From: Mastigias papua
Lineage: Eukaryota > Cnidaria > Scyphozoa > Rhizostomeae > Mastigiidae
DNA length: 64,000 nucleotides
Direction: 5' to 3'
NCBI GenBank assembly: GCA_964019165.1
Contig: OZ025273.1
Coordinates: 16,474,714-16,538,713, forward strand
Every line of letters starts with the position of its first letter. Positions within the stretch are counted from its first letter, which is position 1. The position numbers and the translations under genes are program-made. This document shows, piece by piece, positions 9,792 to 41,592 of the stretch. The notes beneath the pieces were generated by a model. The model did no database searches, was not told the DNA's origin, and saw only the letters and a list, made by a program, of their open reading frames with translations.

Positions 9792-9793
9792 AC

Positions 9794-9806: not shown

Positions 9807-9846
9807 AACCTAACAACTACTCAACTGGCGAGTAACTACGAAAGTT

Positions 9847-10746: not shown

Positions 10747-13700
10747 CTACAAATGAAATTATTGGACCACAAGGAGTTTCTAATTATTCAATTAACGTCA
10801 ATATTGAAGGAGTAGCAATTCCAATGGATATTGACACTGGAAGTGCAGTCACCCTTCTCAAAAAGCAAGATTTCTTGAGATTACGAAATGCAAATTTGTC
10901 TACATTGGACCGCCCAAGTTTAATACTGAAGAGCTATACAGGAGATCTAATCACATGTTTTGGAGAAAAGAGTATGAAAGTTAAAATTGAAGATCAGGAG
11001 GCTGACGTCTTGATTCGTGTTGTTGATGGTCCAGGACCGTCATTGCTGGGAAGAGATCTGATGGAGAAAATTACACTACCTTGGAAAAGTATCTTCAAAA
11101 TCAGAGTGACAGTTGAAGACGTCATGGAAGATTGCGCTGATCTTTTTGACACTACAACTGTAGGAAAGCTTGAGGGAGTACAAGTCTCACTAAGAGTTAA
11201 TGACGAAAACCCAGTGTTTATGAAAGCAAGAACTGTACCGTTTGCCATACGTGAACGGTATGAAAAAGCTTTAGATAAATTAGAAGAAGATGGTATTATC
11301 GAGAAAGTGGAATTTTCTGAGTGGGCATCACCTACAGTTCCAATAGTGAAAGCTGATGGGAGTATACATATCTGTGGAGATTATTCATGCACTAGTAACA
11401 AGTTTTCTGTGTTGGAACAGTACCCTGTACCAATGTTAGAAGAGCTCATGGGAAAGTTACAAGGAGGAAAGAAGTTCACAAAGCTTGATTTATCAAAGGC
11501 ATATCATCAGTTGGAGTTAACACCCGAAAGCAAGAAATTTACTACAATCAATACGACAAAGGGATTGTATCAGTACAATCGCCTACATTTGGAGTTACAA
11601 GTGCTGTTACTATTTTCTAGCGCACAATGGAAAATCTTTTAAATGACGTACCCGGTTGTGTGGTGTATATTGATGACATCCTGATCACTGGAAGTTCAGA
11701 TGAGGAACATTTGCAAAACCTACGTCAAGTTTTAAATCGATTACAAGAGAAAGGCCTCAAACTGAAGAAGGACAAGTTTGATTTCATGTTGGACAAGGTT
11801 AACTACTTGGGGTTTGTTATCTCATCTACTGGAATCTCACCTACACAAGACAAAGTTAGAGCTATGCAAAAGGCCAAAGCTCCAAACAACGTTACAGAAT
11901 TACAAAGCTTTATTGGAATGGCTAACTACTTACGTCAGTTCATTCCTAACTTTGCTGAAATTATGTCACCATTGTACAAGTTATTACGAAAGAATATAAA
12001 TTGGAGATGGGGAGATGGAGAAGAACAAGCTTTTGTCAAGATTAAAGCATCTATTACGTCAGAGCAAGTATTACGTCACTACGACCCAAGTGCACCATTA
12101 GTGCTATACAAGTTGATGCATCATCACTTGGAGTTGGAGCTGTTATTTTGCAACCAGAAGATAGAACTTTGAAACCTGTAGCATATGCATCAAGGATACT
12201 TACAAATGCTGAAAAGAAGTACTCTCAGATTGAGAAAGAATCACTAGCAATAGTATTTGGAGTAACTAAGTTCAGGCAATATCTACTCGGAAGACATTTC
12301 ACTTTGAAAACGGATCACAAACCATTGATAACACTGTGTGGGGAACACAAGCCAATACCTCAGATGGCATCGTCTAGAATTAAACGCTGGACATTGCTAT
12401 TGACTGCTTACGATTATACAATTGAATCTGTACCAGGAAAGGAAAATTGCTGTGGTGATTTTTTGTCTCGAAATCCTGTTGAAGAACCACCTACAACTGA
12501 AGAGAAGGAAACTGTGCAAGTTCTTTTCACCCAAGAAGGAGTAATCAAATCTGATGTTGTTTCAGTTGAGACAAAAAGAGATCCTGTGCTTAGAAAAGTA
12601 CTATTTTACACGAGATTTGGCTGGACTGAAACACCCACTGAGGAATTATTTCCTTATTACAGTAAGAGGATAGATATTACTACTGAGGATAATACGTTAA
12701 TATGGAACGATCGTGTAATCATTCCTACTTCACTGAGGGAAATTCTACTAAATGATTTACATGCTGAGCATCTTGGAATAGTGAAAACCAAACAGTTAGC
12801 TAGGAAGTATGTTTGGTGGCCAATGATTGATCGAGACATTGAAAGCAAAGTAAAAGAATGTGTTGTCTGCCAAGAAACAGCTAAGAAACCATCTGACACA
12901 CAACAAGCCAAATGGTCATGGCCTGTAGGGCCATGGAAACGTCTGCACCTTGATTTTGCTGGCCCTTTCGAAGGAGTTTAGTGATCGTAGACGCGTATTC
13001 AAAGTATTTGGAGATTGTTCCTATGACAACCATTACTTCAAGTAACACCATTGCTGCACTACGACATTTATTTAGTCATTTTGGTCTACCAGATCATATT
13101 GTCACGGATAATGGAACACAATTCACAAGTAATGAATTTGGAACATTCCTATGTTTGAACAACATACTTCACACAAAGACAGCACCTGCACATCCTGCAA
13201 CAAATGGAATAGCCGAACGCTACGTGGGGCACTTCAAGGAAAAAATTACACAGATGAAGATAAGTAATGAACCATTACCAGTCAGATTGGATAAGTTTTT
13301 ATTCACGTATAGAGTAACGCCTACAACGATTGGAAAGTCACCTGCAGAACTTTTAATGAATCGACAACCCAAGACAAGATTCGATTTACTAAGACAGAAG
13401 AGTTTCCAAGAGACAAAGCAACAAGTTAAGATTTTCCAAGATAACTCAGAGTTCAAAGCTGATTTCAAACCGAGTCAAGCTGTATTTGTTTTAAATTTTG
13501 GTAAAGGGGCAAAGTGGTTACCTGGAATAATATTGAAAGAGATTAGCCCAAGAAATTTTGAAGTCCAAGTCGAGGACGTAGTTTGGAAAAGACACTGCAC
13601 ACAAATTAGACCAAGGTACATACCAACAACTTTACTAGATAGGAGAAAAGAGGAAGTTCAACCAACAGAGATTCCAACTACAACAGAAGAAAAAATTCCA

Positions 13701-13928
13701 GCTCCTGCCCCAGAACAAGAACCGAGTAACAAACCTACCATGTCAATACCTACACTGAAAGAAAAGAAGGACAAGGAAATGACAACTGAACAACCAATGG
13801 AAGCAAAAAATAGATCAATCACAAACAGAGATGCAGTAACAGAACCTAACATGACAGAAATTGCATCCGAACCAAGATACCCTCGCAGAGAAAGAAGAAA
13901 ACCAGATAGATTGGTGATAGAACATTAA
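10635..13928 (+). pseudogene. pol: Gypsy-1 Pol: protease, RT, RNase H, integrase (several lesions)
   Basis: Order along the sequence: aspartic protease (DIDTGSAVTLL, about 10830); RT fingers and palm (LDLSKAYHQLEL); a lost base near 11586 and TAG at 11618 just before the YIDD box (about 11666); a lost base near 12113; RNase H (DASSLGVGA, TDHKPL); integrase zinc finger (HAEH...CVVC, about 12760-12872); and integrase core (LDFAGPF; TDNGTQF; NGIAERYVGHF). A frame change at about 12978 splits the core after its first Asp. The tail (about 13640-13928) is rich in Pro, Glu, Thr and Lys. Family function: copying element RNA into DNA and inserting it. This copy cannot make an intact polyprotein. Confidence 0.93.
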
Positions 13929-14026
13929 ACTAATGATATTTGTTGTGATAGCTATACTGATCTGATTAAGTTTGTGTTAGTTTTTTATTTAAGGAAAAAA
14001 AGGAAAAACAATTGTGTGGAATATTT

Positions 14027-14040
14027 AAAAGGGGAGATAT
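14027..14040 (+). other. Gypsy-1 polypurine tract
   Basis: aaaaggggagatat directly before the 3' LTR, the usual plus-strand primer. Confidence 0.8.
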
Positions 14041-14178
14041 TGTCATGTATTGTGCAAGTAGAACTCCATTTTATATGCCCTTAGGGAAAACAATGATTGT
14101 ATTAAGTTGAAGTTATTGAATTGAAGACTTAGTTGTTTACGCGGGAGCTAGGCCTGTTTACTGCGTCTGATCTACTCA
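14041..14178 (+). repeat. Gypsy-1 3' LTR
   Basis: 138 bp, same sequence as the 5' LTR; followed by the CATTA duplication. Confidence 0.97.
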
Positions 14179-16853: not shown

Positions 16854-17017
16854 TGTAAATTTGATGTCTTGTTATAGATCACGCAGGAAACAAAAACAAC
16901 GAGTATGCTTAGGCCATGCGGCTTTCTCACGCCAACAAAACTTGTATATAAAAACGATTACGTAATAATTCCCATAGAGAGTCTGGGTTTTAGTTCATGC
17001 AATGTCACTTTATTACA
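16854..17017 (-). repeat. Gypsy-2 3' LTR (left in the window)
   Basis: 164 bp; four substitutions against the right copy (I count aaac/aaaa, cacg/catg, aaacg/aaccg and aattc/aagtc contexts), about 97.6% identity. Confidence 0.97.
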
Positions 17018-17035
17018 TCACTCCCTTTTCTTTTA
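17018..17035 (-). other. Gypsy-2 polypurine tract
   Basis: The minus strand reads aaaagaaaagggagtga immediately before the 3' LTR. Confidence 0.75.
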
Positions 17036-17041
17036 GCATCC

Positions 17042-20000
17042 TTAACTTGGCAATATGTTGGAAGGTATTGCACGTCCGAATCTATCAGGTGGATTTCTTT
17101 GTCTTGTTGATCTCCGCACTATCGCTGGTGAAGAATGTCCTTGGTCTCTTTGTTCAGAATTATAACTTGGCAAATCATCATCATCATCAGAATCTGTATC
17201 CCAGTTTTCTGGTTTTGGTATTCTTTTGAAATGTGATATGTTGCGCTTGACTTTACGTTGATCTTTATTTACTGCAATTACCTGTGTTCCTTTCCTTTCA
17301 ACGACAATATACGGGTTTGTATCAAATCGTGTGGTCAGCTTGTTTTTCTTTTGCTGTTTTACCAATACAAAATCTCCGACTGCTATATCGCTATCTTTGA
17401 CCCGTCTTTTGACATCACTGTACTCTTTGTTGTAGTGCTGTTTCTTTTGGTCATTATTGCAGGCTTCTCTATGTCTATCAACGATCGATTTCCTTGGTAA
17501 CGTTGGCAATTTACCACAAATAGTACGATTGAAAAGAAGTTCTGATGGTGGAACTTTGGTGGTGCAGTGTGGCGTTAATCTGTATTGCAAGAGAAAACGA
17601 GACAACTCTTGTTGCCACACCCTCCCTTCTGCTCGTGCTGTTTGAATAGCTCTGCCAAGGGGCTGCATAAAGCGCTCAACTTCGGCATTGCCTTGAGGCC
17701 ATTGAAGAGTTGCAGGGATGTAATCAATGTCCAACAGTGACAGATATTTCTTAAATTCGTCAATGCTAAATGGGGGCCCATTATCTGTTGTTATTTGATT
17801 GGGTAAACCATGAACTGCAAAAGTTTTATCTAACTTTGGAATTATAGTTTTTGCTTTGGTTGATTTCACTATTTCTACAATTGGAAAACGAGAATATCGA
17901 TCAACAATTACTAACAGATATTCACCTGTTGGCATAGGTCCATAGAAATCAATGTGAATCTTTTGCCAGGGTCCAGTGGGCATTTTCGACATTTTCAGAG
18001 GTTGTGGGGGAGCTGGTTGTCCTACAGCTTGGCAAGGAATGCAACGATCAAGTGTATCTTTTGTAAGCTTGTCAATATCTGGAAACCAGACTTTCTCTCT
18101 CATCAAGGCTTTAGTCTTTGACAGTCCTTGGTGAGACTCATGGGCAATGTCGATAGCTCTTTGTCTAAGTGGAGCTGGTAGAACAATTCGTGTTCCACGT
18201 AATATAATGTTGTTTGGACCGATAGTTAGTTCATCTTTGACACTTTTAAATGGCTTGACATTGTCCATGTCCCAGCGATTTAGCTTTATTGCTGCTCTGA
18301 GACCTTTCATTTCTCTATCATCAATACATGCTTTGAGGATTTCCTCCATGGACATAGCTTTAGGGACGGCATTCATTGCGAGAAATTGAACATATTCTTC
18401 TGTGATCTTTTCTTGCGCTGAAACGCTTGCTTTTGTGGGATGCCTGGACATGTAATCAGCTGGGTTTGATGCACCTGATTTATAAACAACCGAGAAATCA
18501 TATGGTTGTAGGCGAAGAATCCAACGTTCAATTCTGGCAGATGTCTTGGCTTTATTGTGTCCATATATTGTCTCTAGAGGCTTATGGTCCGTTATCAAAG
18601 TGAATGAATGACCAAACAAATATAGGTGAAAGTGTTCAACAGCCCAGACAATACTCAGAGCCTCTTTCTCAGTTTGAGAATATCGTTTTTCTACTGAGGT
18701 TAAAGCTCTACTGGCATAGGCCAAAACACGATAATCTCCTGAATCTTTCGATTGTTGTGCCAAGATTCCAGAAACTCCAACTGGGCTTGCATCAACAGTG
18801 AGTATGGTATCTTTTGACTTGTCAAAATACGACATCACTGGAGCAGTTGTGAGGGCTGCTTTCAATTTGTTGAAGGCTTTCTGATGACTTTGTCCCCATT
18901 GAAAATATGCATTTTTCTTTGTCAGCTCTCGCAGAGGGCTAGTTATAGTTGCAAAATTTGGTATATACTTGGCGCTTTAGTTGGCCATGCCGAGTAAACT
19001 ACGCACCTCTTGAATGTTGGTTGGCACTGCAGCATTGCTGAGATCTTCCACTCACTTAGGGTCTGGTCGTGTGCCCTTGTCTGAAAAGATTTGTCCAAAA
19101 AATGAGAGTTCTGTTTGAAGAAAACTGCATTTGGAACTGTTCAGGACAAGACCCTTTTCTGACAATCTCTCTAGGCATGCGTCAAGTGCTCTGTCATGAT
19201 CTTCATGTGTGCTACCAAACACAAGAATATCATCAGCTATATTCTTAACTCCTTTGATACCCTGCAAGTGTTGTTGTAAGGTATGTTGGAACAACTCTGA
19301 AGCTGCATTCGTGCCATAATTCAAACGAGTATACCGGAAAAGGCCTAAATGAGTGCTGAAGGTTGTTATATGTCGACTTTGCTCATCAAGCTCAAGCTGA
19401 TGGTATGCTTGAGAAAGGTCAAGTTTGGAGAAGAGTTTGGCTCCATTTAGCTCATAGCTGATATCTTCGACAGTTGGAATCAAATGTCTTACACGTTTGA
19501 TGGCCATGTTAGCCATTCGCATATCCACACAAATACGAACTGACCCGTCCTTTTTTGGAACTGCTACGATTGGAGAAATCCAAGGGGTTGGCTGGGTGTC
19601 AGGAACTGGTTCTATAATTCCGTCATTTTCGAGATCTTTTACCGCTTTTTCTACTTTGTCACGTATGTGATATGGAATTTTCCTTTGAGGCTGCGCTTGG
19701 GGAATCACCTCAGGATCTATGTTTAATGTCAGGGAATGACCTTTGAGCTTTCCAATACCGGTGAAAACTTCTGGATACTTGTTGACAATCTTTTGCACTG
19801 CTTTGTTGCTTGTCGTAGCTGAAAGTTTCTTCTGGATTTCATTCAAATGAAAACTAACAAGTCCTAAATCTTGAGCTGTTTGCGAAGAAAATAGGCATCC
19901 ACTGTTGTGATTATTTACGACATAGAACGTGCATGTCGTGTATCGTCTGGGTGTTTCCACGAGGGCATCGAATTTTCCGAGAAATCTTACTGGCTTGGTC

Positions 20001-21010
20001 GCATTGTATGTGTAGGCTTTCACGTTTGTTTTGTGCAATGAAATCCCTTTCAATTTTGAAAATGTCTCCTGATCCATGACATTTATACTTGCACCCGTGT
20101 CAACAGTAATTGCAAACGTATGACCAGCAACTGTAACCTTTGCTTTGGGTGTTTCCTTTCTGCGACTGTGTGAACAGTTTTCAAGCAAATATAGATAATC
20201 GTCAAATTCACTGGAATCACTTTCATTGTCAGCTTCAAGCGGTTTGATTTCTGTTGTTGTTTTGTTTTGTCGTTTGCGGGGTTTTCCCCCTCGGCACACA
20301 CTAGCATAGTGATTTAACTTTCCACATTTGTGACACTCCTTTCCCTTAGTGGGGCATGGGCCTTTATGAGGAAACGAACCACCACAATTATCACAGCTCT
20401 GTTTTTTAACTTTGTCCGCTGGAGGTTGAGTTTTGACTTGATGCGCTGTCGCGGTCGGGGCATCTTGTGATTCGATTTCACGAGCTTGATATTGGCTAGT
20501 TTCAGAATGACGACCATCGAGAAGCATGTCCTTTAACGTGTAGTTAGGATCCTTAAGAGCGTTTTTATGTATCCGTGAAGACGTACCTGCGATGATTATT
20601 TGTTCCTCGATCTGAAAGTCAGGATTAGCGAATTCACATGTTTCTGCAAATGACCGAAGACGAGTATGAAACTTGTCTAAGGATTCCCCTTGTTCTTGCT
20701 TGGCCTGTCGGAAACGAAACACTTCGTATCGACGGTTCTTCTGGGGCTCAAAATACTCTGTGAGCTTTGCTTTAGCTGTATCAAAAGCGTCTGCACCGCC
20801 AGTGTCAGGTATTTGTTTGAAAATTTCCCTGATACGTGGGCCAGCTTGATACAAAAGAAGTGCACGCTGTTGCTTTGTATCGGATATACCGCTTGCTACT
20901 AAGAAAGTATCAAAATCATCGAGCCACGTTTTCCAGCGTGTTGCTAAACTTGCACCTACAGCCGTGTCTGGATCAAACGAAGGCAGAGGTTGTAGAGGTA
21001 GCTGTGCCAT
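17042..21010 (-). pseudogene. gag-pol: Gypsy-2 Gag-Pol polyprotein, one frame with two TAA stops
   Basis: Start chosen at ATG 21010, just inside the primer-binding site; the upstream extension runs into the LTR. Order: Gag capsid region; cysteine motifs including a CX2CX4HX4C knuckle (CHKCGKLNHYASVC, about 20290-20335); protease with VDTGAS (about 20095); RT with LDLSQAYHQLEL and catalytic IADD (about 19230; Ala instead of the more common second-position residue, as in some Gypsy lineages). Then RNase H (VDASPVGVSG, TDHKPLE), integrase zinc finger (HESHQG...CIPC) and core (HIDFYGP; TTDNGPPF; GNAEVERF). The frame stays open for about 1,320 codons except TAA at 19052-19054 and 18977-18979, between RT and RNase H. 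No frameshifts. A fused Gag-Pol without a frameshift site is known in several Gypsy groups. Confidence 0.95.
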
Positions 21011-21015
21011 TGTGT

Positions 21016-21028
21016 ATCCTCGTCGCCA
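21016..21028 (-). other. Gypsy-2 primer-binding site (tRNA-Ser GCU type)
   Basis: The minus strand reads tggcgacgaggat one base after the 5' LTR, the same primer as in Gypsy-1. Confidence 0.8.
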
Positions 21029-21029
21029 A

Positions 21030-21193
21030 TGTAAATTTGATGTCTTGTTATAGATCACGCAGGAAAAAAAAACAACGAGTATGCTTAGGCCATGCGGCTT
21101 TCTCATGCCAACAAAACTTGTATATAAAACCGATTACGTAATAAGTCCCATAGAGAGTCTGGGTTTTAGTTCATGCAATGTCACTTTATTACA
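21030..21193 (-). repeat. Gypsy-2 5' LTR (right in the window)
   Basis: 164 bp, paired with 16854-17017. Confidence 0.97.
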
Positions 21194-25262: not shown

Positions 25263-28242
25263 TCTCTATATACTAAGATCCCTATATGATAATTTATGCC
25301 AAACCAATCAGATTGCTCGAAGTTGTACCACGTGACCCATTTTTTTGCCCGATTTTAATGACACTTCTCCTCCTAGGTCTGTTGGGGGATTGTAACCAAA
25401 CTCGGTTTAGGGGTTCTCCTTGGGGTCTATTTACTCACAAAGGAGGGATTTTTCTATATCTGTTCTTTTTGCTGAGATATTCCACTTTCAACTTATGGCC
25501 ATTGCTTTCCTATACCCTCCGACATGCTCACTTGACACCTCTGCGCAGGACTGTTGCTTTCACGTTTATGAATGTTCATGGAGGACGATGGTGCTGTGTG
25601 TGATTGCGAGGAAATTTTTGTCACTGTCTTTCCAGGTAAACCGACTCTGTTTTCCGTAGATGGATTGATTTAAGATTCCATGTATGTCCTTTGTCCATTT
25701 CATCTGTATTCTGCTGTTGCCAGCCATTTATTTCTATATCTTTCAACCAGATTCAACCACCTTCCCTCGAGGGTATTGCCGCCATGACAGTTCTTCTCCA
25801 AGTTGTTTCATTCTATGTGCTAAATCACCGTGCTTTTACTGCTAAATTGTGAAAACATATTCAACATATGTTTGACTTTCTATTCTGTGCTAGACTATGG
25901 CAGTTTGTTTGCCCTTTATGCATATTTTGATGACATGGAATGGCGTGCGTGCTGTTTTCAGTTGGGAATGTTTTGATATGCACTACCGTAATATTGCCGT
26001 GTGACTTGGAGGAGAATTTTGTCGTTCAGCTTTCAGTTTAGTGCTTTTTTCGCTTGATTTCATTCGCTAAGTTATCCTACTTTTCTTACTAAATTGTGAT
26101 GAAATGATTACTGTATGTTTACTGTTGTATTCCTTGGTAGCTTGGAATTTATTCATTGCTTTTACCTCATGTACGAATGGCATAGGATATGGTTATGTTT
26201 GGCGATAAAATATTGGTATGTGGAATGCTTTCACTGAAATGTGTATAGGGCTATTGCTGAATTTGGTTACACAAATTTTGCAGTTTTTACTTTCACCCTT
26301 TACTTTTGTCATAGTGTGTATGATGAAATGCAAGGGGATTCCCAAGTTCATCTCACGATCGCAGATACCTGTTGTCCTTTGGTTTGGAATTTAAATGCGG
26401 TCTTTTGAGGGTGATTCCATAACTTTGCTTCAGGGGCATTAAGATCATGGTAGTTCCCCTAAGTTTTTGCTTGATGTTCTGTTCTAAATTACCGTTTTGT
26501 TACTGCAGAAGTATCATTATGATATTCAGGAGGCATTTAATTCAATATTTGCTTATGTAGTAGGAGCTTTTAACTTGCTCTTAATTCTTAGTATATGCAC
26601 ATGACATGGATGTTAGGATGTCACAAGAGTTAGGCCACTTTGTTTACGTTTGAGATATTGCCCTTGAACTCGAATTTACTCCTTGATTTTATCATACATA
26701 TTTTACAGGCAAACACTAGGATGTCACCAACTTTATTCTCAGCTCAGTGACTCTCTTTTCATTTTGTAATCGCTCTATTTACAGTAGGCCTCATTGTTAT
26801 TTCCACTATAGATGGTAGAGTTATTTTGGTGAAGTCATATTAAAGGGGTTCTATTAAACTAAATATTCTTTTGTTGGCACACAGTTGCCCTTCTTTCTCA
26901 GATCACTTGATATAAATTCCATTACTGAATTCCATAGACCATTCTGCACGTGATGATATACTCTTAAGGGATGAATTTATCTTGCCCCCACTCAAGTAGT
27001 ACCTTCATTTGAAATCTTAGTTGGTAATGCAGGATATATATTATGACTCAATTCAAAGAATTACTGACTTCCATGGATCACTCTGCATATGATAGTATAG
27101 TTGTTTTAGGGATGAAGTAGTACTAGATAGCAACATTTTGATTTATGGAGCCACTGTCTTCAATCCAACTACCATTATTGTTTGAAATCTGAATTTTACA
27201 TGGTTGTAACAGATAATTTAGTACTGGATAGCTGCTTTATTTGTGTTGTATAGCCATAACCTATGACCTCCCCACAAGAACTTTGGTTGAAATCTAATAT
27301 GATGATTCATGCTGCTCAATCATGGGCTTTACACTCTGTTATATATATAAAGCTGTGATATAGGAATACTAAGCAATATTATTTTGTTTTATCACCTTGA
27401 ACTACACAGTCCTATCACAGATTCCAGTTGTATAACACCTACATTTATGGGTCAGACTTGATCCTTTACCTCTGTAGACAAGATTAGTGGTCACCTACAC
27501 GATAACAGAAACACTCATACCTGCCAATTCATGTGCTATATTGTATCTGTTAGGACATCCTAAAATTATATCACCAGATTTTACAAAACTCCTTAAGTTA
27601 GAATTGAGTGAAGCAGGAGACAATATGTAATGTAGTTTCATTAGCGCCTCATTGTAGAGAGCATTGTAAACAATTCTGTGCATAATTCATATAATATAGA
27701 CTAGCTTAGTACTGATAGCCCGCTAGAACGCGGGCTTCCCTAGCCCCAGTTGAAATGTTGCATATTAGCCTTGGAAAGACTAACGCTGTGCCCCCATGAA
27801 TGTTGCATGGTCTGGTCGCATAGGATCACGAGAAGGTTACGTTATGGGCCTCTGCGATGGAGCACGTGACTTTCGGCCTTGCATTGTGCAAATCGAAGAA
27901 AATTGCCAGAAAAAATTGTGCAAAAAATGCTCGGATACCTGCGCTAGGCTACGGGGCTTCTTGATTTTCATCCTTTCCCTTTACTGCCCCGTAGCCTAGC
28001 GCAGGTATCCGAGCATTTTTTGCACAATTTTTTCTGGCAATTTTCTTCGATTTGCGCAATGCAAGGCCGAAAGTCACGTGCTCCATCGCAGAGGCCCATA
28101 ACGTAACCTTCTCGTGATCCTATGCGACCAGACCATGCAACATTCATGGGGGCACAGCGTTAGTCTTTCCAAGGCTAATATGCAACATTTCAACTGGGGC
28201 TAGGGAAGCCCGCGTTCTAGCGGGCTATCAGTACTAAGCTAG
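25263..28242 (+). mobile_element. Helitron unit 1 (non-autonomous, type B)
   Basis: Starts TCTCTATATACTAAGATCCC after an A, as Helitrons insert between A and T. Its first ~220 bp closely match the autonomous unit 8 (shared atgccaaaccaatcagattg and an ACGTG motif about 70 bp in). No credible coding sequence. The 3' end is the 548-bp palindrome 27698-28245 and the unit ends CTAG at 28242, immediately joined to unit 2. It holds one copy of the CGCCATGACAGTT motif (about 25786) and a divergent copy of the aggggattcccaa block (about 26333). Confidence 0.8.
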
Positions 28243-28245
28243 TCT
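27698..28245. repeat. Giant palindrome 1 (arms 260 bp, loop 28 nt)
   Basis: Left arm 27698-27957, right arm 27986-28245. I see one mismatch (T/C within gcattgYgcaaatcg). The outer part contains the Helitron 3' end and its small hairpin (agcccgc/gcgggct). The inner ~210 bp carries blocks shared with palindromes 2 and 3: attagccttggaaagactaa, a CACGTGAC site, and cggatacctgcgctaggcta next to the loop. Confidence 0.95.
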
Positions 28246-31200
28246 CTATATACTAAGATCCCTAAAATGCAAATGAGCAAAGATCAAATGGGCCGCCGGT
28301 CAGCTCGTGGTAAAAACTCCTCCTTGGTCTTCTGCGTGATCGGTCTCAAACTTTTGCCGAGAGTCCAGTCCTATGTCTAATTGATATTCTAGATGTCATT
28401 TTAATTTTATCGATTTTTTTTGCAAAGATATTCGACTTTTTCTGATGGACTGCGTGCGCCTTTGTTGTGGCCTTTTGTTCTCCATTGTGTTCGTCCACAG
28501 GGCAAGCCTGCTCTCAGTGTAGTTTCTTCTCGCACTGGCTGAGGATGGTGGTAGATTCCGTGTGAAATTTCACTTTTTTTATGGCAGGTGAGTGACTGTT
28601 TTCGATCCAAAGTGGTCTTTTCATGTTTGCCTGTAACTCCTGCACTGAATATCGGTGATTTCTGTTGTGTTAGGCAAGGTAATCCCATGTTTTGAGCGAG
28701 AATCCAATGCCTACCCTCGGGGATATTATCGCCATGACAGTTGAAGAGCCAACTCAAGGAAAATTTCGTTGTTTTCCTGCCAGGTGAGTCACAATTTTTG
28801 TACAAAACATTTCGATTAGAGTGTGTCGATTAGTCCTTCATTGGATGTGTGCATTGCCTAGGATTATGAGCTAGGTATTTCAATGTTTTCAGCGAAATCC
28901 TCCCGCGAACCTCTCGCTGGATTAGCGCCATGACTGTTCCTTCCCAAGCCGTTCCACTCTCTTCCCTAGATCAACTTGCTGTTTGTGCTAAATTGTTAGT
29001 ATGTATTGACGAGAAGTGTACAGTTTTAGTCCCTGCTATTTAAGTGTGAATTTCATGTGCATATACTGGAGATGATTGCGATCGTGTAGCTTTTACTTTG
29101 GACACTTCCCTCAATGGTAGAGTTTGCCCTTTGACTTGGAAGGAACTATTATAGGTATTTTCTACCAGGTGAGTGGTTTTCTAATGCTATAACGTTTGAT
29201 TTCAAATTGCCTGTCTTCCCCCTGTCCTCTGTGTGCACTTTCTATGGTATTGTCGACACTTAATGTTCAATATTGCTAGCGAGATTGCAATAGCTTCCCT
29301 CGGGGGTTTTCCGCCATGACAGTTCATCTCCACCATGCTTGATGTTATTCTCTCTTGGTTGGTGAATTCAAGCGAACTTTCGTCCTTCTACTACTAGGTA
29401 AGTCGTTTTTACATATAATAAGGTTTGTTTTCAGATGGCCTATAATTTGTCTGTCTACTATACATGTTTCATTTTACACATGTTATATCAGTATTTTGAG
29501 CGAGCTTCCCTCAGTGGTATTTCGCCATTACACAGTCTCTCCGATCGGATGGATTTTATTCTCTGGATTGGTGTGGGTCTTTCACAATATTGTGATGAAA
29601 TACTTATGATATGTTTACTGTTGTATCCCTTGCTGGATTGCTATATTTATTCCTTGAAGTTAATGCGTGGATAGATGGCATAGGAGATCGTTATGTTTCC
29701 TGATGAATTATGGTACATGGGCTGCTTAATTTGGTCATTCCTGAATTCAGTTGGGCCTAGGTTTTCATGTTTTTATGTGACTTACTGATAAGAGTGTAAG
29801 TTTTTATGTGTGATATAACTGTTATCAGAAGTTCCCATTCCCCCCAGTTCAGCCAAGGAAGCACCTGCTCTGTGTGTTTGATTCTCATTGCCAGTAGTCA
29901 AGAAACATCTAAATACGTTTGAACAGAGATGTCCAAAGTGTGTATAATTTACTTGCTAACTGTTCTTAATATTATGCTGGTGATATTTTGGTATTCTTAC
30001 ACACTTTATTTTGTTGTATGTTGTAGATAGACATGCGAGGGGATTCCCAACTTCAGTTCACGATTGCAGAACCTCTCATCCTTTGTTTGCGAACAATAGT
30101 GTTTACACAAGGCCGCAAGTTTGCAGTTGAGGGCGTGTTTACAAAGTGGATGGATATCTTGCAATTCTTCGTGGAATTTCGTCTCTTCTCTATAAGGTAA
30201 GTGGCTTATTTCATTAACAAGGTTTCGATTTAGTTTTACCAGGATTATTTTGTTTAGGATGATCACTACTTTCCCAGCTAGACGAGATTTAGTGCGATAT
30301 TGTGAGGGAGATTCCATACGATTGCCTCTGCTCGGGGGTCATATGATCATGGCAATTCCTTTCATGTTCGCTTGATTTTCGCCTGTAACTTACCGTTGTG
30401 TTACTACGGAAGTTTCGGTATAATATTTAGGAGATCCTTACTGTATTATTTACTGATATACTAGGACTTTTAGCGTGCTGTTTGTACTTTGTCTTTGTGC
30501 GAGAGTTTCACTGAATTATAACTGGATAGTTAGGCCGCTTTGTGTACGGTTGAGATGTTGTCAGTCACTTCTGCTTAGCTCTTGCTTTTTATAATATACT
30601 TATTGTAAGCTGGAGCTAAGATATTGTTCAAATTATTCGTTTGAGTATTGGACTGTACTAGATCTCTTTCCCGTTCACTGTTCTTGCAGTATTTTGAGAA
30701 AAGTACTACGTGTACTCTCTCTCTCACACTTTGAGGGGCGGTTCTTATTCATCTCAGTCGCAGTGTGTTATTCCCATTAGTACACTTTTCTGTATCCTAA
30801 ATCATTCGGTTATTTATAGTTAAAGGTGCCAAGTCTTATACGGATATTTTATCTACTAATTCGTTGATAATTTCGTGTATAGTACTGGATGCATTGTCCA
30901 GTTGTTCCTTCTTGATTTATTTACACTGATATTGTGTTCTAACTTAGGTGTGTATTCAATACACTTAAGTAACTTATTCCTGAGGCTGTATTCGGTATAC
31001 TACTTTACTGATTGCCTATGTAGTTACAGCAGTTTAATACTCTTTATTTACAACAGTCTAATAAGTGTGTTCACTATAAATTTGACTTTTATTTTCCTTG
31101 AATCAGCATTTGGGTTCTTTTATGCTAAATATTCGTCTCCTGGCTACCCAGCTCTCTGCCTTTATCAGATCATTTGTTATAGACGCCATTAATGATTTCC

Positions 31201-32653
31201 ATGCCTCATTCTGCACATGATAACATGGTTTCAATGGATCTTTTAGTGTTAGATAACAAGCATTTGTATTGTCTTGGAGCCCCACCTTTGAGCTCCCACT
31301 CCACTTTACAGTATTGTTCATAGTCAAATGTTATAAGGGGCTTGCTATAAGAGATTATTATGTATAGAAGGTTGTTTCACACTCATATACAAGTTTGAAA
31401 TCATTGTTGAATATGTCATAGCATTGTTTAGGAATATTCTTTAGTTTCTATGCACTTGAATTATGGAGTATAATTAGACATTGTCATTTGAAACAACCTA
31501 CTTGAATGCAAGCGAGTACTGGGTGTTTAGGAAGATTAATGGTTACACTCAGCTGACAGTTGCACCCATGTATAGCAATTTATGTGCAATATTTAACCTG
31601 TAATACTGTAAGGCACATCTACCCTGCTAAAGTGAACTAGACTCCTTAGCTTAGACTTGATATCTATGCATATGCATATATGTAATTGTAGTATTTTGAG
31701 GCATTAAGTAATACACACTAGCACCGCAAATAATCATTTGGTAAACTTAATGACAATAGCAGTGTAGGTTCATGATTTTCATTAATACACAGCCATATAT
31801 GTAGTATATTATTTGTATTCTATAGAGACACATGATGTTATGAACAATTTCTACCCTTTGATACAATGTAAATTTACCCTACTACATTGTACTCGACTCC
31901 TTAGGTTGCAAGTGATTATCATGCTTAAGAATGCATTTGATTGTGGTATTTTAAGGAATTAGTATAGGACATAACCACACATTTCATTAGGTAAGTTTAA
32001 TTCAAATAGCTTGGAAAGTTATTCATTTTCATTCATACACAGCTGTATATGCAGTATATTATTTATATTCTATGGATACAAGTGATGTTATACACAATAT
32101 GTTATATGTTAAGCAATTCTATTGATATGACTAAGACTAGCAGTTTTTTGATAGCCCGCTAGACGCGGGCTCCCCTACCCCCGGTCAAAGCTGGAGATTA
32201 GCCTTGGAAAGACTAACGCAGTCGCCCATTGAAGCAGCATGGTCCGCATTTTCGATGAGGATCATGGGATGGTGACGTCATGGGCCTCTGCGATGGAGCA
32301 CGTGACCATCAGCATTGCATTGGTCAAATCGAAAAAACTGCGACTAAAAATTGTGCAAAAAATGCTCGGATACCTGCGCTAGGCTACGGGGCTTTCCACC
32401 TTTCCTTATACAGCCCCGTAGCCTAGCGCAGGTATCCGAGCATGTTTTGCACAATGTTTTCTCGCAATTTTTTCGATTTGACCAATGCAATGCTGATGGT
32501 CACGTGCTCCACCGCAGAGGCCCATGACGTCACCTTCCCGTGATCCTCATCGAAAATGCGGACCATGCTGCTTTGATGGGCGACTGCGTTAGTCTTTCCA
32601 AGGCTAATCTCCAGCTTTGGTTGGGGGTAGGGGAGCCCGCGTCTAGCGAGCTA
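28243..32653 (+). mobile_element. Helitron unit 2 (non-autonomous, type A)
   Basis: Starts TCTCTATATACTAAGATCCCTAAAATGCAAATGAGC directly after the CTAG of unit 1. The interior is non-coding, with several CGCCATGACAGTT / splice-donor modules and the conserved aggggattcccaac block (30031-30200). The 3' end is palindrome 2. Positions 28243-32159 are almost identical to unit 4 at +9410. Confidence 0.8.
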
Positions 32654-32655
32654 TC
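32150..32655. repeat. Giant palindrome 2 (arms 244 bp, loop 18 nt)
   Basis: Left arm 32150-32393, right arm 32412-32655, with about ten mismatches, including three in the cccccggtcaaag/cccccaaccaaag region and one in the outer gcgagcta. Same block order as palindromes 1 and 3 but clearly diverged sequence. Confidence 0.93.
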
Positions 32656-35600
32656 TATATACTAAGATCCCTAAAATGCAAATGAGCTCGCCATTGTTTA
32701 CATCAAAGGGACCAGCACCCTCCACTGTTATGAATTCTTTTTCTAGTGTTCTCTCTGGATGTGCCTGAGAATTATCACGGTAGTTGAAACTAGTGAGTTA
32801 TGGTGCTTTTTTGATTTTCAAGTCTGTATCTTCAAGTTTCGAGGAGATATCTCAGTTTCTCTATCGCGATTTTACTGGCTTTGTCTGTCCTCTTTTGTCC
32901 TCCATTGTATTCGTCCGCACGGAAGGCACTGCTCTCAGTACATGGCGTGTTCGATCGGTAGCTGGTTAACTGTTGGTGCTAGATGAATTCCGTTGGTTTC
33001 TACCAGGTTAGTAGCTATTTTTCCTCCCTAAATGCTCTACTTTAGTTGAGTTATAGTGCCTTGATCGATTGCCTGCGTTTTCTGCTGTTGCAAACGATTT
33101 GTTTTCACGTATCGAAGCACTTTCGTATGTCCTCCCTCGCGTGTGTTATTCGCCATGACAGTTGAGCAACCAATTCGTCGCTTCATTGCTGTCTGAAGAT
33201 TCGATTTATCATTACCAGTCTTTAGTCAATGAAATTATAGCACTGCTGCTGCTTTGTCGATTCGATGTACGGGTGATGTGAGCCCTATATTTGCCTCTTT
33301 TGTTAGGCCAGATTGGAACAGCTTCCCTCGGGGGCAATCTCGCCGCCATGACAGTTCTTCTCCATTCGTTCGATTCTGTTCGCCGGATTTCAATGCTTTA
33401 ACTGGTAAGTTGTGTTAACAGATTTAACTGATGTTGCATGTTGTATTCGTTGGTGTATTAGGTCAATGTTTAGTTGTTTTTCATCCCTGTTAAATAGGAT
33501 AAACCGAACGTGCAACTCTCAGTTCGGAGATGGTTTGAATGCGACTAATGGTCCAGTTGGAAGTTCAAGAAGATGTCGTGCTTCTGCTACCAGGTGAGTC
33601 GTTTTCTGATGCTAACACGTGTGATTTTAAATTGCCTGTCTGTCCCCTGTCCTCTGTGCGCAATTTCTATGTATTTTCGACACTAATGTACAATAATGCC
33701 AGCGAGATGAGATTGCAATAGCTTCCCTCGGGTGTTTTACGCCATGACAGTTCCTCTCCACAATGGTTGATGTTATTCTCTGTTGCCGGGTCAAGTCAAG
33801 TGAACTGTCGTCCTTCTACTACCAGGTAAGGTGTTGTTTCATGTAGTAGGGTTTGTTTTCAGATTGCCTGTAATTTTTCTGTCTACTATACATGTTCCAT
33901 ATTACACACGTTAGGTCAGTATTTTGAGCGAGCTTCCCTCAGGGGTATATCGCCATGACACTTCCTCGCCGATCAGATTTAGTTTATTCTCTAGATTGTC
34001 TTGAATCTATTACAATATTGGGATGAAATAGTTACTGACCTATTCGTTGCTAGATCGATGTTTATACCTTGAAGCTAATGCGAGCCTAAAGGAGATAGGA
34101 AGTCGTTACCTTTCCTGATGAAGTGTGCTACATGAAATGCTGAAGTTGAGCATTGATGAAGTGTGTTGGGTCTAAGTTTGTAGTTGTATATGTGACTTAT
34201 TGTGTGACTTATAATTAAGAGTTTAAGGTCTTTTCGGTAATATAACTGTAACAAGAAGGTTTCGTTCCCCCTCAGTTTAGTCAAGGAAGACACTACTCTG
34301 TGTGTTTCATTCTCATTGCCAGTAGCCACAAAATATCTTAACATGGTTGTACAGAGATGTCTACAGTGTGTATATTTTATTTGCTAACTGTCCGTCATAT
34401 TATTCCTATGATGTTTTGGTGTCCTTACGCTCATTATTGTGTTGTAGGTTGTAGATAGAAATGCGAGGGGATTCCCAACTTGAGATCAAGATCGCAGAAA
34501 CCTCTCATCCTTTGTTTGCGAACAATAGTGTTTACACAAGACCGCAAGTTTGCAGTGGAGGGCGTGTTTACAAAGTGGATGGATTTCGTTCAAGTCTTCA
34601 TGGAATTTCGTCCCTTCTCTCTAAGGTCAGTGGTTTATTTCATTGAGAATGTTTCGATATAGTTTTACCAGGATTTTTTTGTATAGATTGGTCGCTACTT
34701 TCCAAGGTGGACGAGATTTAATGCCATGTTTTGATCGAGATTCCATAAGATTGCACTGGGGCGGTATGATCATGCCAATTCCTTTCATGGTCGCTCGATT
34801 TCCGCCTGTAAATTACCGTTTGGTTACTACAGAAGTTCGGTACACTATTAAGTGGGTATTTACTGTATTATGTACTGATATATTATTACAGTGTATTGTG
34901 CTGTTCATACTGTGCATTTGCATGTGATTTTGAAGGAAGTATGTCTGAACAGTTAGGCCGCTTCCTTTACGTTTGATTTGTTGTCAGTCACTTCTGGTTA
35001 GCTCTTGGTTTGTACCATACACCTATTGTAGGCTGGAGCTAAGATGTTGTTCAACTTACTCCTTGACTTATTGGAGTGTAATAGCTCTCTGTCCCAGTTG
35101 GTTTTGTTACAGTATTTTCGAGAAGGTACTACGTGTATTCTCTCTGAAACCTTGAGGGGCGTTTCATTTTACTCTCAGTCACTAAAGCTGATTCCTTCCT
35201 TATTCTCAGTAGAACACTTAGTACTCTGAATCAGTGGTATCTTTATAATGAAAGGTGCAAAGACGTATACAGATATTATATGTACTAATTCGTTGATACT
35301 TTGGTGTATAGTACTATGCGTTGTCAGGTTGTTCTTTATTGATGTTGTTAGGCTTACATTGTGTTCTAAAGTATGATTGTGGTCAACACACTTAAGTAAG
35401 TTATTCATAGGGCTTTATTTTGTATAGTACTCTACTGATCACCTATGTATATACAACAGTCTAACAATCTTTATTATGTACAAGAGTCTAATCATTGTAT
35501 TCACTATAGATTTTTGTGTTATTTTGGAGGAATCAGCTTATGGTTGCTTTAGTCCTAGCTCTCTGTTGCTGGCAAATCAGCTCCCTCTTATCCTAAGATT

Positions 35601-37652
35601 ATTTGTTATCAAGACCATTCATGATTTCTATTCATCATTCTGCACATGATAATATGGTTTGACTGGATCAAGTAGTATTAGATCACAATGATTTGCGCTG
35701 TTTAATATTACTTCCTGCAGCCCCATCTTCCAGCCCGCATCCCAATTAACAGTATTGTTTGTAATCAAATGTTTTGAGGGACTTACTGTAAAAGAGTATT
35801 ATGTATAAGGGGTTTTGCCACACTCATGCACAATTTCTGAGTTTCAAATCATTTCTGACTAGCACACTTATAGGAATATTCTTTAGCTGTTATGAACTTA
35901 AATTATGAAGCATCCCTATACATTGTCATTGTATATTGCCTACTTCAATGCCTCAAGGTAGCTATTGTAGGAGTTTGAAAGATATTACTGGGTGTGCCTA
36001 GATGACAATGGTAGTCATACAATTGACTTGATATCCTTAGATGATACATGTACCAATATAGTACTTGATTGTCTGCCTGTAGGATTTTTGTCACTAGCCT
36101 ATTTCACTTTGAGATATCAGTTGTCACCATTACCATTACAACTTTTGATATTTCACTCTGTTTATGATGATATGTTGTTAAAGTTTCGTAATAGTTATAG
36201 CCAGCAACCTTATTTGTATTGTACTCAATTGCCACATCAGCCCCCCATCTGAAGTACAGCTATGATAATAAATTTGTTTTTATGATGCAAGCTCTACATA
36301 TTCTGTGTCATTGATATGATTTACAGCTTTATGTGGTTGACAAGAGGTTAGGACTCACATGATTTTGGTCCATAACATTGTTACTGTTGAGTTTGCTCTA
36401 GGATTATAAGGCACTATTATTTCAGGTTTTTACACTTATGGACCAGTCATTAAGTATCAGGGGGTGGGGGTTCAGGCACATGATACAATAGATTCAACAA
36501 TTTGTACCTGAGTTGGACATGCAAAAATATTCTAGAGTTCCAGATTAAGTACTTTGCGGAGCCCAACACTTAATTTTTGTTATTGATTGTATTACATCAG
36601 TTATTTTTGTCTTGGATATATTAGTTAGTGGTCCTTGGCAACAGCATAGGTAATAGTATATGTGACTGTGTTCCACCACAAGTTGATATGCAGTATTGTA
36701 GGATTGCTAAGAGGTTATGAGTTACTTATCTACATAAGCATAGGCATGATCTATGCACTTTATTTTGGAGTCTTTTCAAATAGTAGAATATTTTACAAGT
36801 GAATATAATGCCTCTGGATAAATTATATGGCAGTTTGGATAAGGTATTTGACTACAACCATCTATAGGATGCTAGGTCCTATAAGATATATTACTAAGTT
36901 GTACACCCCCCCCTCCCACTACCACCACCATAAGTACCTGTTATACTTGAAATCTGACTTTGCTATTTCAGGCTGTATAATATATCTCATTCATTGGCTT
37001 GCCAGCTTACTATGTAGAATATTATAAAGTGATGTTATATTACCAAGCGATATTCTTTTATTCTTATGAACTTGAAGTATAGGGCCTGTCAGGTATTGTA
37101 ATTAAATTCTATCTAATTTAGTTGGTCTTAGTATGTAGTACAGCAATTGGACAAGATTAATAGCTAAAACCAGATAGAGTTTACAGTCATACCTCTCATT
37201 TGATGTGACATACTATATGTTCTCTAAAGTATTTACATTATACAGCAACATTGTATAAGACTCATTACATTGGGATTGAGTGATGCATGAAATATTGTGT
37301 GATGTATATGGCCTGTCAGGTATTGCAATTGCATTCTATCTAATTTTTTGGGTCTTATTATGTATTATACCAGACTGGACAAGATTAATGGCTAATACCA
37401 GATAGAGGTTGCAGTCGCACCTCATTTGTTGTGACATACTAAATCGTCTGTGAAGTGTTTACATTATACTGCAACATTATTGTATAAGACTCATTATATT
37501 AGGATGTAATCATGCAGGAGATATTGTATGATGTATTTCCATTTATGCCTCATTGCACACACCACTTTAAAACATTATATGCTTAGTTCATGTAATAGAG
37601 ACTAGCTTAGTACTGATAGCCCGCGTCTAGCGGGCTATCAGTACTAAGCTAG
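32654..37652 (+). mobile_element. Helitron unit 3 (non-autonomous, type A)
   Basis: Starts TCTATATACTAAGATCCC overlapping the end of palindrome 2. The non-coding interior has modules around 33150, 33350, 33590, 33740 and 33950 and the conserved block at 34459-34630. It ends in the short hairpin (arms 37597-37624 and 37630-37657, loop gtcta) and CTAG at 37652. Confidence 0.8.
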
Positions 37653-37657
37653 TCTCT
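37597..37657. repeat. Short Helitron 3' hairpin, unit 3/4 junction (28-bp arms)
   Basis: A perfect 28-bp stem with loop gtcta. The stem extends through CTAG into the first five bases of unit 4 (tctct). Confidence 0.95.
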
Positions 37658-40600
37658 ATATACTAAGATCCCTAAAATGCAAATGAGCAAAGATCAAATG
37701 GGCCGCCGGTCAGCTCGTGGTAAAAACTCCTCCTTGGTCTTCTGCGTGATCGGTCTCAAACTTTTGCCGAGAGTCCAGTCCTATGTCTAATTGATATTCT
37801 AGATGTCATTTTAATTTTATCGATTTTTTTTGCAAAGATATTCGACTTTTTCTGATGGACTGCGTGCGCCTTTGTTGTGGCCTTTTGTTCTCCATTGTGT
37901 TCGTCCACAGGGCAAGCCTGCTCTCAGTGTAGTTTCTTCTCGCACTGGCTGAGGATGGTGGTAGATTCCGTGTGAAATTTCACTTTTTTTATGGCAGGTG
38001 AGTGACTGTTTTCGATCCAAAGTGGTCTTTTCATGTTTGCCTGTAACTCCTGCACTGAATATCGGTGATTTCTGTTGTGTTAGGCAAGGTAATCCCATGT
38101 TTTGAGCGAGAATCCAATGCCTACCCTCGGGGATATTATCGCCATGACAGTTGAAGAGCCAACTCAAGGAAAATTTCGTTGTTTTCCTGCCAGGTGAGTC
38201 ACAATTTTTGTACAAAACATTTCGATTAGAGTGTGTCGATTAGTCCTTCATTGGATGTGTGCATTGCCTAGGATTATGAGCTAGGTATTTCAATGTTTTC
38301 AGCGAAATCCTCCCGCGAACCTCTCGCTGGATTAGCGCCATGACTGTTCCTTCCCAAGCCGTTCCACTCTCTTCCCTAGATCAACTTGCTGTTTGTGCTA
38401 AATTGTTAGTATGTATTGACGAGAAGTGTACAGTTTTAGTCCCTGCTATTTAAGTGTGAATTTCATGTGCATATACTGGAGATGATTGCGATCGTGTAGC
38501 TTTTACTTTGGACACTTCCCTCAATGGTAGAGTTTGCCCTTTGACTTGGAAGGAACTATTATAGGTATTTTCTACCAGGTGAGTGGTTTTCTAATGCTAT
38601 AACGTTTGATTTCAAATTGCCTGTCTTCCCCCTGTCCTCTGTGTGCACTTTCTATGGTATTGTCGACACTTAATGTTCAATATTGCTAGCGAGATTGCAA
38701 TAGCTTCCCTCGGGGGTTTTCCGCCATGACAGTTCATCTCCACCATGCTTGATGTTATTCTCTCTTGGTTGGTGAATTCAAGCGAACTTTCGTCCTTCTA
38801 CTACTAGGTAAGTCGTTTTTACATATAATAAGGTTTGTTTTCAGATGGCCTATAATTTGTCTGTCTACTATACATGTTTCATTTTACACATGTTATATCA
38901 GTAGTTTGAGCGAGCTTCCCTCAGTGGTATTTCGCCATTACACAGTCTCTCCGATCGGATGGATTTTATTCTCTGGATTGGTGTGGGTCTTTCACAATAT
39001 TGTGATGAAATACTTATGATATGTTTACTGTTGTATCCCTTGCTGGATTGCTATATTTATTCCTTGAAGTTAATGCGTGGATAGATGGCATAGGAGATCG
39101 TTATGTTTCCTGATGAATTATGGTACATGGGCTGCTTAATTTGGTCATTCCTGAATTCAGTTGGGCCTAGGTTTTCATGTTTTTATGTGACTTACTGATA
39201 AGAGTGTAAGTTTTTATGTGTGATATAACTGTTATCAGAAGTTCCCATTCCCCCCAGTTCAGCCAAGGAAGCACCTGCTCTGTGTGTTTGATTCTCATTG
39301 CCAGTAGTCAAGAAACATCTAAATACGTTTGAACAGAGATGTCCAAAGTGTGTATAATTTACTTGCTAACTGTTCTTAATATTATGCTGGTGATATTTTG
39401 GTATTCTTACACACTTTATTTTGTTGTATGTTGTAGATAGACATGCGAGGGGATTCCCAACTTCAGTTCACGATTGCAGAACCTCTCATCCTTTGTTTGC
39501 GAACAATAGTGTTTACACAAGGCCGCAAGTTTGCAGTTGAGGGCGTGTTTACAAAGTGGATGGATATCTTGCAATTCTTCGTGGAATTTCGTCTCTTCTC
39601 TATAAGGTAAGTGGCTTATTTCATTAACAAGGTTTCGATTTAGTTTTACCAGGATTATTTTGTTTAGGATGATCACTACTTTCCCAGCTAGACGAGATTT
39701 AGTGCGATATTGTGAGGGAGATTCCATACGATTGCCTCTGCTCGGGGGTCATATGATCATGGCAATTCCTTTCATGTTCGCTTGATTTTCGCCTGTAACT
39801 TACCGTTGTGTTACTACGGAAGTTTCGGTATAATATTTAGGAGATCCTTACTGTATTATTTACTGATATACTAGGACTTTTAGCGTGCTGTTTGTACTTT
39901 GTCTTTGTGCGAGAGTTTCACTGAATTATAACTGGATAGTTAGGCCGCTTTGTGTACGGTTGAGATGTTGTCAGTCACTTCTGCTTAGCTCTTGCTTTTT
40001 ATAATATACTTATTGTAAGCTGGAGCTAAGATATTGTTCAAATTATTCGTTTGAGTATTGGACTGTACTAGATCTCTTTCCCGTTCACTGTTCTTGCAGT
40101 ATTTTGAGAAAAGTACTACGTGTACTCTCTCTCTCACACTTTGAGGGGCGGTTCTTATTCATCTCAGTCGCAGTGTGTTATTCCCATTAGTACACTTTTC
40201 TGTATCCTAAATCATTCGGTTATTTATAGTTAAAGGTGCCAAGTCTTATACGGATATTTTATCTACTAATTCGTTGATAATTTCGTGTATAGTACTGGAT
40301 GCATTGTCCAGTTGTTCCTTCTTGATTTATTTACACTGATATTGTGTTCTAACTTAGGTGTGTATTCAATACACTTAAGTAACTTATTCCTGAGGCTGTA
40401 TTCGGTATACTACTTTACTGATTGCCTATGTAGTTACAGCAGTTTAATACTCTTTATTTACAACAGTCTAATAAGTGTGTTCACTATAAATTTGACTTTT
40501 ATTTTCCTTGAATCAGCATTTGGGTTCTTTTATGCTAAATATTCGTCTCCTGGCTACCCAGCTCTCTGCCTTTATCAGATCATTTGTTATAGACGCCATT

Positions 40601-41592
40601 AATGATTTCCATGCCTCATTCTGCACATGATAACATGGTTTCAATGGATCTTTTAGTGTTAGATAACAAGCATTTGTATTGTCTTGGAGCCCCACCTTTG
40701 AGCTCCCACTCCACTTTACAGTATTGTTCATAGTCAAATGTTATAAGGGGCTTGCTATAAGAGATTATTATGTATAGAAGGTTGTTTCACACTCATATAC
40801 AAGTTTGAAATCATTGTTGAATATGTCATAGCATTGTTTAGGAATATTCTTTAGTTTCTATGCACTTGAATTATGGAGTATAATTAGACATTGTCATTTG
40901 AAACAACCTACTTGAATGCAAGCGAGTACTGGGTGTTTAGGAAGATTAATGGTTACACTCAGCTGACAGTTGCACCCATGTATAGCAATTTATGTGCAAT
41001 ATTTAACCTGTAATACTGTAAGGCACATCTACCCTGCTAAAGTGAACTAGACTCCTTAGCTTAGACTTGATATCTATGCATATGCATATATGTAATTGTA
41101 GTATTTTGAGGCATTAAGTAATACACACTAGCACCGCAAATAATCATTTGGTAAACTTAATGACAATAGCAGTGTAGGTTCATGATTTTCATTAATACAC
41201 AGCCATATATGTAGTATATTATTTGTATTCTATAGAGACACATGATGTTATGAACAATTTCTACCCTTTGATACAATGTAAATTTACCCTACTACATTGT
41301 ACTCGACTCCTTAGGTTGCAAGTGATTATCATGCTTAAGAATGCATTTGATTGTGGTATTTTAAGGAATTAGTATAGGACATAACCACACATTTCATTAG
41401 GTAAGTTTAATTCAAATAGCTTGGAAAGTTATTCATTTTCATTCATACACAGCTGTATATGCAGTATATTATTTATATTCTATGGATACAAGTGATGTTA
41501 TACACAATATGTTATATGTTAAGCAATTCTATTGATATGACTAAGACTAGCAGTTTTTTGATAGCCCGCGTCTAGCGGGCTATCAAAAAACT
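37653..41592 (+). mobile_element. Helitron unit 4 (near-identical copy of unit 2)
   Basis: 37653-41569 corresponds to 28243-32159 with a constant offset of 9410. I noticed one substitution (a T/G near 29483 / 38893). The 3' end differs: unit 2 has the giant palindrome, unit 4 has only a 17-bp hairpin (41553-41569 / 41575-41591, loop gtcta). Confidence 0.85.
41553..41591. repeat. Short Helitron 3' hairpin, unit 4/5 junction (17-bp arms)
   Basis: Perfect stem gttttttgatagcccgc with loop gtcta, followed by the start of unit 5. Confidence 0.95.

Follow-up and report, generated by a model that had tools for sequence, protein, structure and literature searches.

A giant palindrome at the 3′ end of a Helitron family in the scyphozoan Mastigias papua

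Why should a Helitron end in a palindrome of ~550 bp, when canonical Helitrons carry a short hairpin 10-12 nt from their 3′ end? The question is raised by a stretch of 64,000 nt from the genome of the scyphozoan Mastigias papua (assembly GCA_964019165.1, contig OZ025273.1, our C10:16474714-16538713; hereafter the window), which holds a head-to-tail array of eight Helitron units at 25263-63128. The first unit, U1, is closed by a giant palindrome on the + strand (G1, 27698-28245, 548 nt), which forms its 3′ terminus. On alignment, the dimensions given in the original prediction are exact: two arms of 260 nt each (27698-27957 and 27986-28245) with a single internal mismatch (27887/28056) enclose a 28-nt loop (27958-27985), and a small GCCCGC-TAGAAC-GCGGGC hairpin sits at the base of each arm, as had been claimed. 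The giant also stands where a short Helitron 3′ hairpin was said to be replaced; the element end CTAG of U1 lies at 28239-28242, and the last three bases of 27698-28245 belong to the next unit.

All eight units are on the + strand and start with TCTCTATATACTAAG or close variants of it (at 25263, 28243, 32655, 37653, 41593, 44486, 48438 and 54183), and the 8-mer AGACTAGC occurs eight times on this strand of the window, once before the 3′ hairpin of each unit. U1 (25263-28242, 2980 bp) is non-autonomous, has an A before its 5′ TCTCTATATACTAAG and ends in AAGCTAG. Giants also terminate U2 (28243-32654; G2, 32142-32663, 17 mismatches in 250 aligned pairs, 18-nt spacer) and U5 (41593-44485; G5, 43884-44489, 5 mismatches in 286 aligned pairs, with a block of ~28 bp in both arms that is missing from G1). 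The other five units end in short hairpins with perfect stems of 16-30 bp: U3 (32655-37652; 30-bp stem at 37595-37659, loop GTCTA), U4 (37653-41592; 18-bp stem at 41552-41592, loop GTCTA), U6 (44486-48437; 21-bp stem at 48391-48437, loop GTCTA), U7 (48438-54182; 16-bp stem at 54143-54179, with a loop, TAGAC, that is inverted relative to those of U3, U4 and U6) and U8 (54183-63128; 19-bp stem, hairpin at 63086-63128, loop TACAC). In several units the 3′ hairpin is immediately preceded by part of the 5′ motif TACTAAG in inverted orientation. Inverted pairs less than 1.5 kb apart in the 64 kb (blastn, E<=1e-3, a threshold that would miss smaller hairpins, any small 5′ hairpin included) are found only at the eight unit 3′ ends, and a search for structured RNA or tRNA found none.

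U8 contains a RepHel coding region (56385-61541, + strand; ORFs 56385-57572, 57767-60874 and 61068-61541) with Helitron_like_N and PIF1 domains (Pfam PF14214 and PF05970), HAH, the Y2 motif KYIFKY and Walker A. Its product is a homolog of Helraiser (chain 7lcc, E 7.8e-264), and no endonuclease domain was found in the three ORFs scanned.

The host assembly (347 Mb, 172 contigs) was searched with the 3′ end of U1, the palindrome being taken together with 98 bp of the body before it and the 55 bp that follow. This returned 1238 candidates—a first-look number, as are all candidate totals given here, and not a copy number—and all of the best 40 that were scored have flank and palindrome at 93-100% identity, so that the long terminus is present in the other family copies to which the original prediction had pointed (40/40). 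Thirty-nine of these places lie outside the window and have differing right flanks; all were fetched, 20 with 7 kb and 19 with 0.7 kb of sequence. A full-length U1-like element of 3 kb (TC...CTAG) is present at 19 of the 20 long loci, with a TC 5′ end and 85.8-99.7% identity, while at L009 the copy at the match is 5′-truncated and a full-length copy lies upstream. A second query was confined to the U1 body (27000-27690) and so carried no information on the 3′ end; it gave 395 candidates. Among the best 40 scored, the giant is retained in 33 (27 known, five new and complete, and one that is cut by the next unit and ends 17 nt early). The remaining bodies comprise one with a deletion in the right arm (L057), four that stop inside the palindrome (L049 and L050 in the loop, L055 just beyond it, L054 in the left arm), one with a short and truncated end (L053), and one with a short hairpin (L060), whose loop is GTTCTA and whose end is CTAG followed by T, the right-arm loop being kept and the interior gone. 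The exact palindrome-tip pattern had no match in viral_contigs or genome_contigs, and neither the short-hairpin pattern nor RepHel relatives were found in viral_contigs.

As to their placement, the closest copies are grouped in a small number of chromosome regions of megabase size (C10 15.8-17.4 Mb, C13 0.5-5.1 Mb, C18 9.6-15.0 Mb and C21 0-3.5 Mb, with further clusters on C6 and C23). Three U1-like bodies (G000:C13:516822, 557880 and 598938, those of L050, L049 and L019) are spaced exactly 41,058 bp apart, which suggests segmental duplication; those of L050 and L049 end in the loop, and the giant of the third is complete.

A similar picture is obtained for the RepHel-bearing type. The 3′ end of U8 (62380-63130) gave 473 candidates, and among the best 40 scored, ten places besides U8 itself are 96-100% identical to it. 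In all ten the match ends at query position 737, directly after GATAGCCCGC-loop-GCGGGCT, which is the point where giant and short forms part, and the left arm of a giant is present in 10/10. The right arm runs to its end in eight, with CTAG, CTA or CTAA before T; L129 is without a right arm, and that of L137 is cut by the next unit. The last RepHel exon is found at the expected upstream distance in 9/10 copies (96-100% identity; eight without stops and one with two), and in one copy there was no match. The giant is thus the ordinary terminus of the RepHel-bearing type and the short hairpin of U8 the exception, and these ten copies overturn the view, suggested by U8, of an autonomous element restricted to a short hairpin. 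Within 600-bp stretches around three TACAC/GTGTA short hairpins, no RepHel exon was found.

Six further palindromes met by chance in the fetched loci bring the set to 46 including G1, and the right junctions of the 45 outside the window locate the end of the element. A regular expression called 23 of these tandem and 22 host, but reading shows a unit start beyond L016_1 and L046_0 and a U1 body beyond L009_0, so that 19/45 adjoin unrelated DNA. The next base is T in all 19, and the ends are CTAG in 15, CTA in two and AAG in two, the cut in the four shorter ends (1-4 nt earlier) having been placed where the mirrored arm stops before T. At the other boundary, the base before TC at the ten long loci with an unrelated 5′ flank is A in seven and G in three, canonical Helitrons inserting between A and T without a target duplication. 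Of the other canonical Helitron traits, RepHel, a TC 5′ end (19/20) and a 3′ end of the CTRR type (CTAG in 15/19) are found in this family, with the canonical short hairpin replaced by the palindrome in giant forms. The palindrome is part of the element: at many sites it ends with CTAG, followed by T, at the Helitron 3′ border. It is probable, all in all, that a near-perfect palindrome of ~550 bp is the ordinary 3′ terminus of the family, in non-autonomous and RepHel-bearing types alike, that its arms are copied onto each other, and that it would act as a terminator.

A 260-bp stem in DNA is normally unstable and a strong block, yet here the elements of a Helitron family with RepHel members and hundreds of palindrome copies usually end in one. 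The original prediction saw in the palindrome a cruciform able to stop a replication fork or a rolling-circle helicase. A block of the rolling-circle machinery is not supported: near-identical elements carrying the giant (up to 99.7%) stand at many sites. The giant could still act as a terminator. On the peeled-off plus strand, the palindrome would fold and act in place of the customary terminator hairpin, and the cut would come a few nucleotides after the stem, with T as the next base. By analogy with Helraiser, in which the hairpin acts as a terminator and its deletion lowers transposition and gives read-through (PMC4778049), the giant may be a rolling-circle terminator.

A single substitution separates U2 from its twin U4 in the 3917 bp that precede the hairpin; exactly where GATAGCCCGC ends (32160) the two diverge, U2 continuing into the giant and U4 into the short form. 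As comparison of such forms shows, a giant can apparently shrink to a hairpin of 16-30 bp, the simplest route being a deletion between the basal repeats, GCCCGC or GCGGGC. A deletion between the two GCCCGC copies would leave the right-hand loop (GTCTA or GTTCTA), and one between the GCGGGC copies would leave the left-hand loop TAGAC; forms with either loop exist. L060 is a GCCCGC-type deletion form in the U1 lineage, and loop inversion by template switching would also explain the short forms.

The main rival is that the giant is a tolerated passenger in the loop of a short hairpin, the work being done by the base hairpin and CTAG. We regard this as unlikely but credible. The short-hairpin ends of L060 and L072 adjoin unrelated DNA and U8 has a short hairpin, so that a short hairpin may suffice. 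Moreover, G1 and G2 are 78-92% alike in the palindrome while their left flanks are unrelated (46-52%), indicating a module-like interior that moved between unit types, and the palindrome core is common to the units, with outer stems that vary according to the host unit (U2 and U4 both having AGTTTTTT). What speaks against a mere passenger is the retention of the giant, which is the rule in both types (33/40 bodies; 10/10 left arms) although deletion is easy, and its higher conservation, being 84-89% conserved between the U1/U2 and U5/U6 junctions as against 63-69% for the immediate flanks. In G5, furthermore, the base mini-hairpin has one mismatch while the long stem is still paired.

It is also conceivable, if quite improbable, that the palindrome is kept for a long double-stranded RNA that would be processed to small RNAs, for self-regulation or as a trigger of host silencing. 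The predicted single-strand fold of G1 is extremely stable as RNA (-546.6 kcal/mol, z -56.5; mean of 100 shuffles -166.8 kcal/mol, SD 6.7, with 0/100 matching the real value), but such an energy is expected of any long palindrome.

Galileo, FB and Tetris are fold-back elements with long, near-identical inverted repeats, a likeness that extends to the present palindromes, and a separate fold-back transposon with Helitron hairpins as its target would account for a palindrome interior common to unlike units; the difference between U2 and U4 can even be written as an insertion with a 7-bp direct repeat, AGCCCGC. This is highly improbable on the census of palindromes in the assembly. Exact copies of a 24-mer from the palindrome tip number 335 in forward and 340 in reverse orientation (0 for the reversed pattern), and because each palindrome yields at most one forward and one reverse tip, at least 340 whole or partial palindromes are present. 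Exact matches to the short hairpin with its 5-nt loop number 40, a count that is comparable with the former only roughly, the two patterns differing in stringency. The first 20 distinct places among 100 tip matches listed (on C1, C3 and C4), selected solely by the tip, were scored for the Helitron terminal stem with loose patterns and checked by eye: 11 have it at both edges, nine at a single edge, with the opposite side truncated, and none lacks it altogether. The palindrome occurring alone, which the original prediction had considered as the contrary case, is thus seen in 0/20, and unlike in the fold-back elements it is not independent in 20/20 and stands at the end of a rolling-circle element. 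In addition, the loops TAGAAC and GTTCTA are inverted and not direct copies, and hence give no target duplication. Set against the main reading are the one-edge places, the two RepHel-type ends lacking all or part of the right arm and the four U1 bodies ending inside the palindrome, which represent premature ends or later deletions.

Finally, although long palindromes are difficult to sequence (PMC4057610), a fold-back artefact of assembly or sequencing is exceedingly improbable and was ruled out by the 39 other places with differing right flanks and the hundreds of tip matches, as well as by loops that are homologous and in one orientation in 44/46 palindromes, by private changes, and by right sides that in 45/45 cases run into a unit start or other DNA and never back into the left flank.

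The near-identity of the arms within a palindrome is maintained. In the window, arms group by element with high support (0.998-1.0 in FastTree, 100 in IQ-TREE), within-palindrome mismatches amount to 1/259 in G1, 5/286 in G5 and 17/250 in G2, and the comparison of G1 with G5 shows 29 substitution and 31 indel columns common to both arms, as against 6 one-arm columns. Over the 46 palindromes, leaving out the outer 25 pairs, the arms of one palindrome mismatch at a median of 1.1%, and left arms of different palindromes diverge by a median of 4.7%. In 43 palindromes (L011_0, L020_0 and L023_0 having been dropped as divergent or mixed) there are 79 private alleles, of which 14 are in both arms, 22 in the left only and 43 in the right only, whereas parallel mutation would be expected to give ~0.04 in both. 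Such private mutations and indels in both arms show that one arm is copied onto the other. Correction is not universal, since in L023_0 (the first palindrome of L023, ~2121-2670) the arms are of two subfamilies, with 41/231 mismatches, evidence of recombination inside arrays. A directional copying from left to right was dropped: right-only alleles outnumber left-only ones (43 vs 22, p 0.01), but per palindrome the ratio is 14 vs 7 (p 0.19). Flip-flop of the whole hairpin was likewise ruled out by the single orientation of the 28-nt loop (two of the 46 palindromes have unrelated loops), both orientations being seen only for the 5-nt loops of short hairpins.

How the arms stay alike may be accounted for by polymerase template switching, or by repair synthesis in the folded form, either of which would copy one arm from the other. 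Template switching evens out inverted-repeat arms and inverts spacers (PMC8604942, PMC8794818), and the cases treated there (yeast genes, rRNA, microRNA stems) show the same homogenization and spacer inversion, comparable to TAGAC/GTCTA here; those are short arms or RNA stems, while here the arms are of 260 bp and indels are common to them as well. It is decidedly unlikely that the right arm is rebuilt from the left at or around transposition by a parvovirus-like self-primed end, the 3′ end of the displaced strand folding back and priming synthesis on the left arm, which would regenerate the terminus. Self-priming would explain the exactly mirrored short stems of 16-30 bp, the mirrored homopolymer runs and the mutations and indels in both arms, as well as 3′ ends that break off at varying positions in the mirrored arm.

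The flanks also point to a target motif. Of 25 unrelated right flanks, 18 have a CTA that begins 5-12 nt beyond the element end (17 being CTAA or CTAT), as compared with a mean of 2.9 and a maximum of 5 when anchors are shifted along the same flanks, and a mean of 4.0 and a maximum of 11 in 5000 shuffles, the counting script requiring T at +1. In a second flank set the script found the motif in 8/13, with one flank unparsed and one badly parsed. The 5′ end of the element itself, TCTCTATATACTAAG, contains the target motif, with CTA at +11, an observation that covers the right flanks L010-L060 together with window positions 25263, 28243, 37653, 44486 and 48438. This may explain the head-to-tail arrays, which would arise by self-targeting, i.e., insertion just before an existing copy. 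A literature search covering few subscription papers found no described target preference of this type, and, within the same coverage, no description of a giant Helitron terminus.

Compared with known systems, the family shares with canonical Helitrons (Helibat1/Helraiser of bats) a RepHel homolog, 5′-TC and CTAG-3′ ends, T after the end, a 3′ hairpin and head-to-tail junctions. The Helraiser palindrome, however, is of 19 bp and lies 11 nt from the end (PMC4778049), while the present one measures 548 bp, with a stem extending through the terminal CTAG. Helitron2/Helentron elements use TT or other sites and have 3′ palindromes of ~5-10 bp (PMC4067079, PMC5148889), in contrast with the TC..CTAG ends found here between A or G and T; a TT target was not encountered in the loci read. 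The partial inverted TACTAAG before the 3′ hairpin of several units is reminiscent of an asymmetric terminal inverted repeat. Head-to-tail Helitron arrays are described from plants, bats and others (PMC5876387, PMC5148889), from which the present one differs in its several unit types, its mixture of giant and short ends, and an insertion motif that resembles the element's own 5′ end. The giant, truncated and short forms, with both loop orientations, provide a natural series for testing what a Helitron terminator needs, and the family should be useful for studying the survival of long palindromes through replication, the homogenization of their arms, and self-targeting in the building of arrays.

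Some further features of the window may be noted. Nineteen strong splice-donor-like sites (AGGTGAGT or AGGTAAGT) lie on the + strand between 28586 and 51332, all within Helitron units; the - strand has none anywhere in the window. U1-U7 (25263-54182) are T-rich on the + strand, with an AT skew of -0.14 to -0.22, that of the left flank being +0.03. U3 contains a 227-bp tandem duplication (82%) at 37073-37536. Alignments of U7 with other units show a gap at ~50363-51313, a region containing an ORF (50300-51088) without a Pfam match, which we take to be LINE-like. Outside the array, a MULE transposase with a FLYWCH zinc finger is found at 389-1891 (- strand), and two retroelement-like stretches at 9654-14178 and 16854-21193, presumably Gypsy-like, lie between short direct repeats (138 and 164 bp) and have gag-pol-like ORFs.
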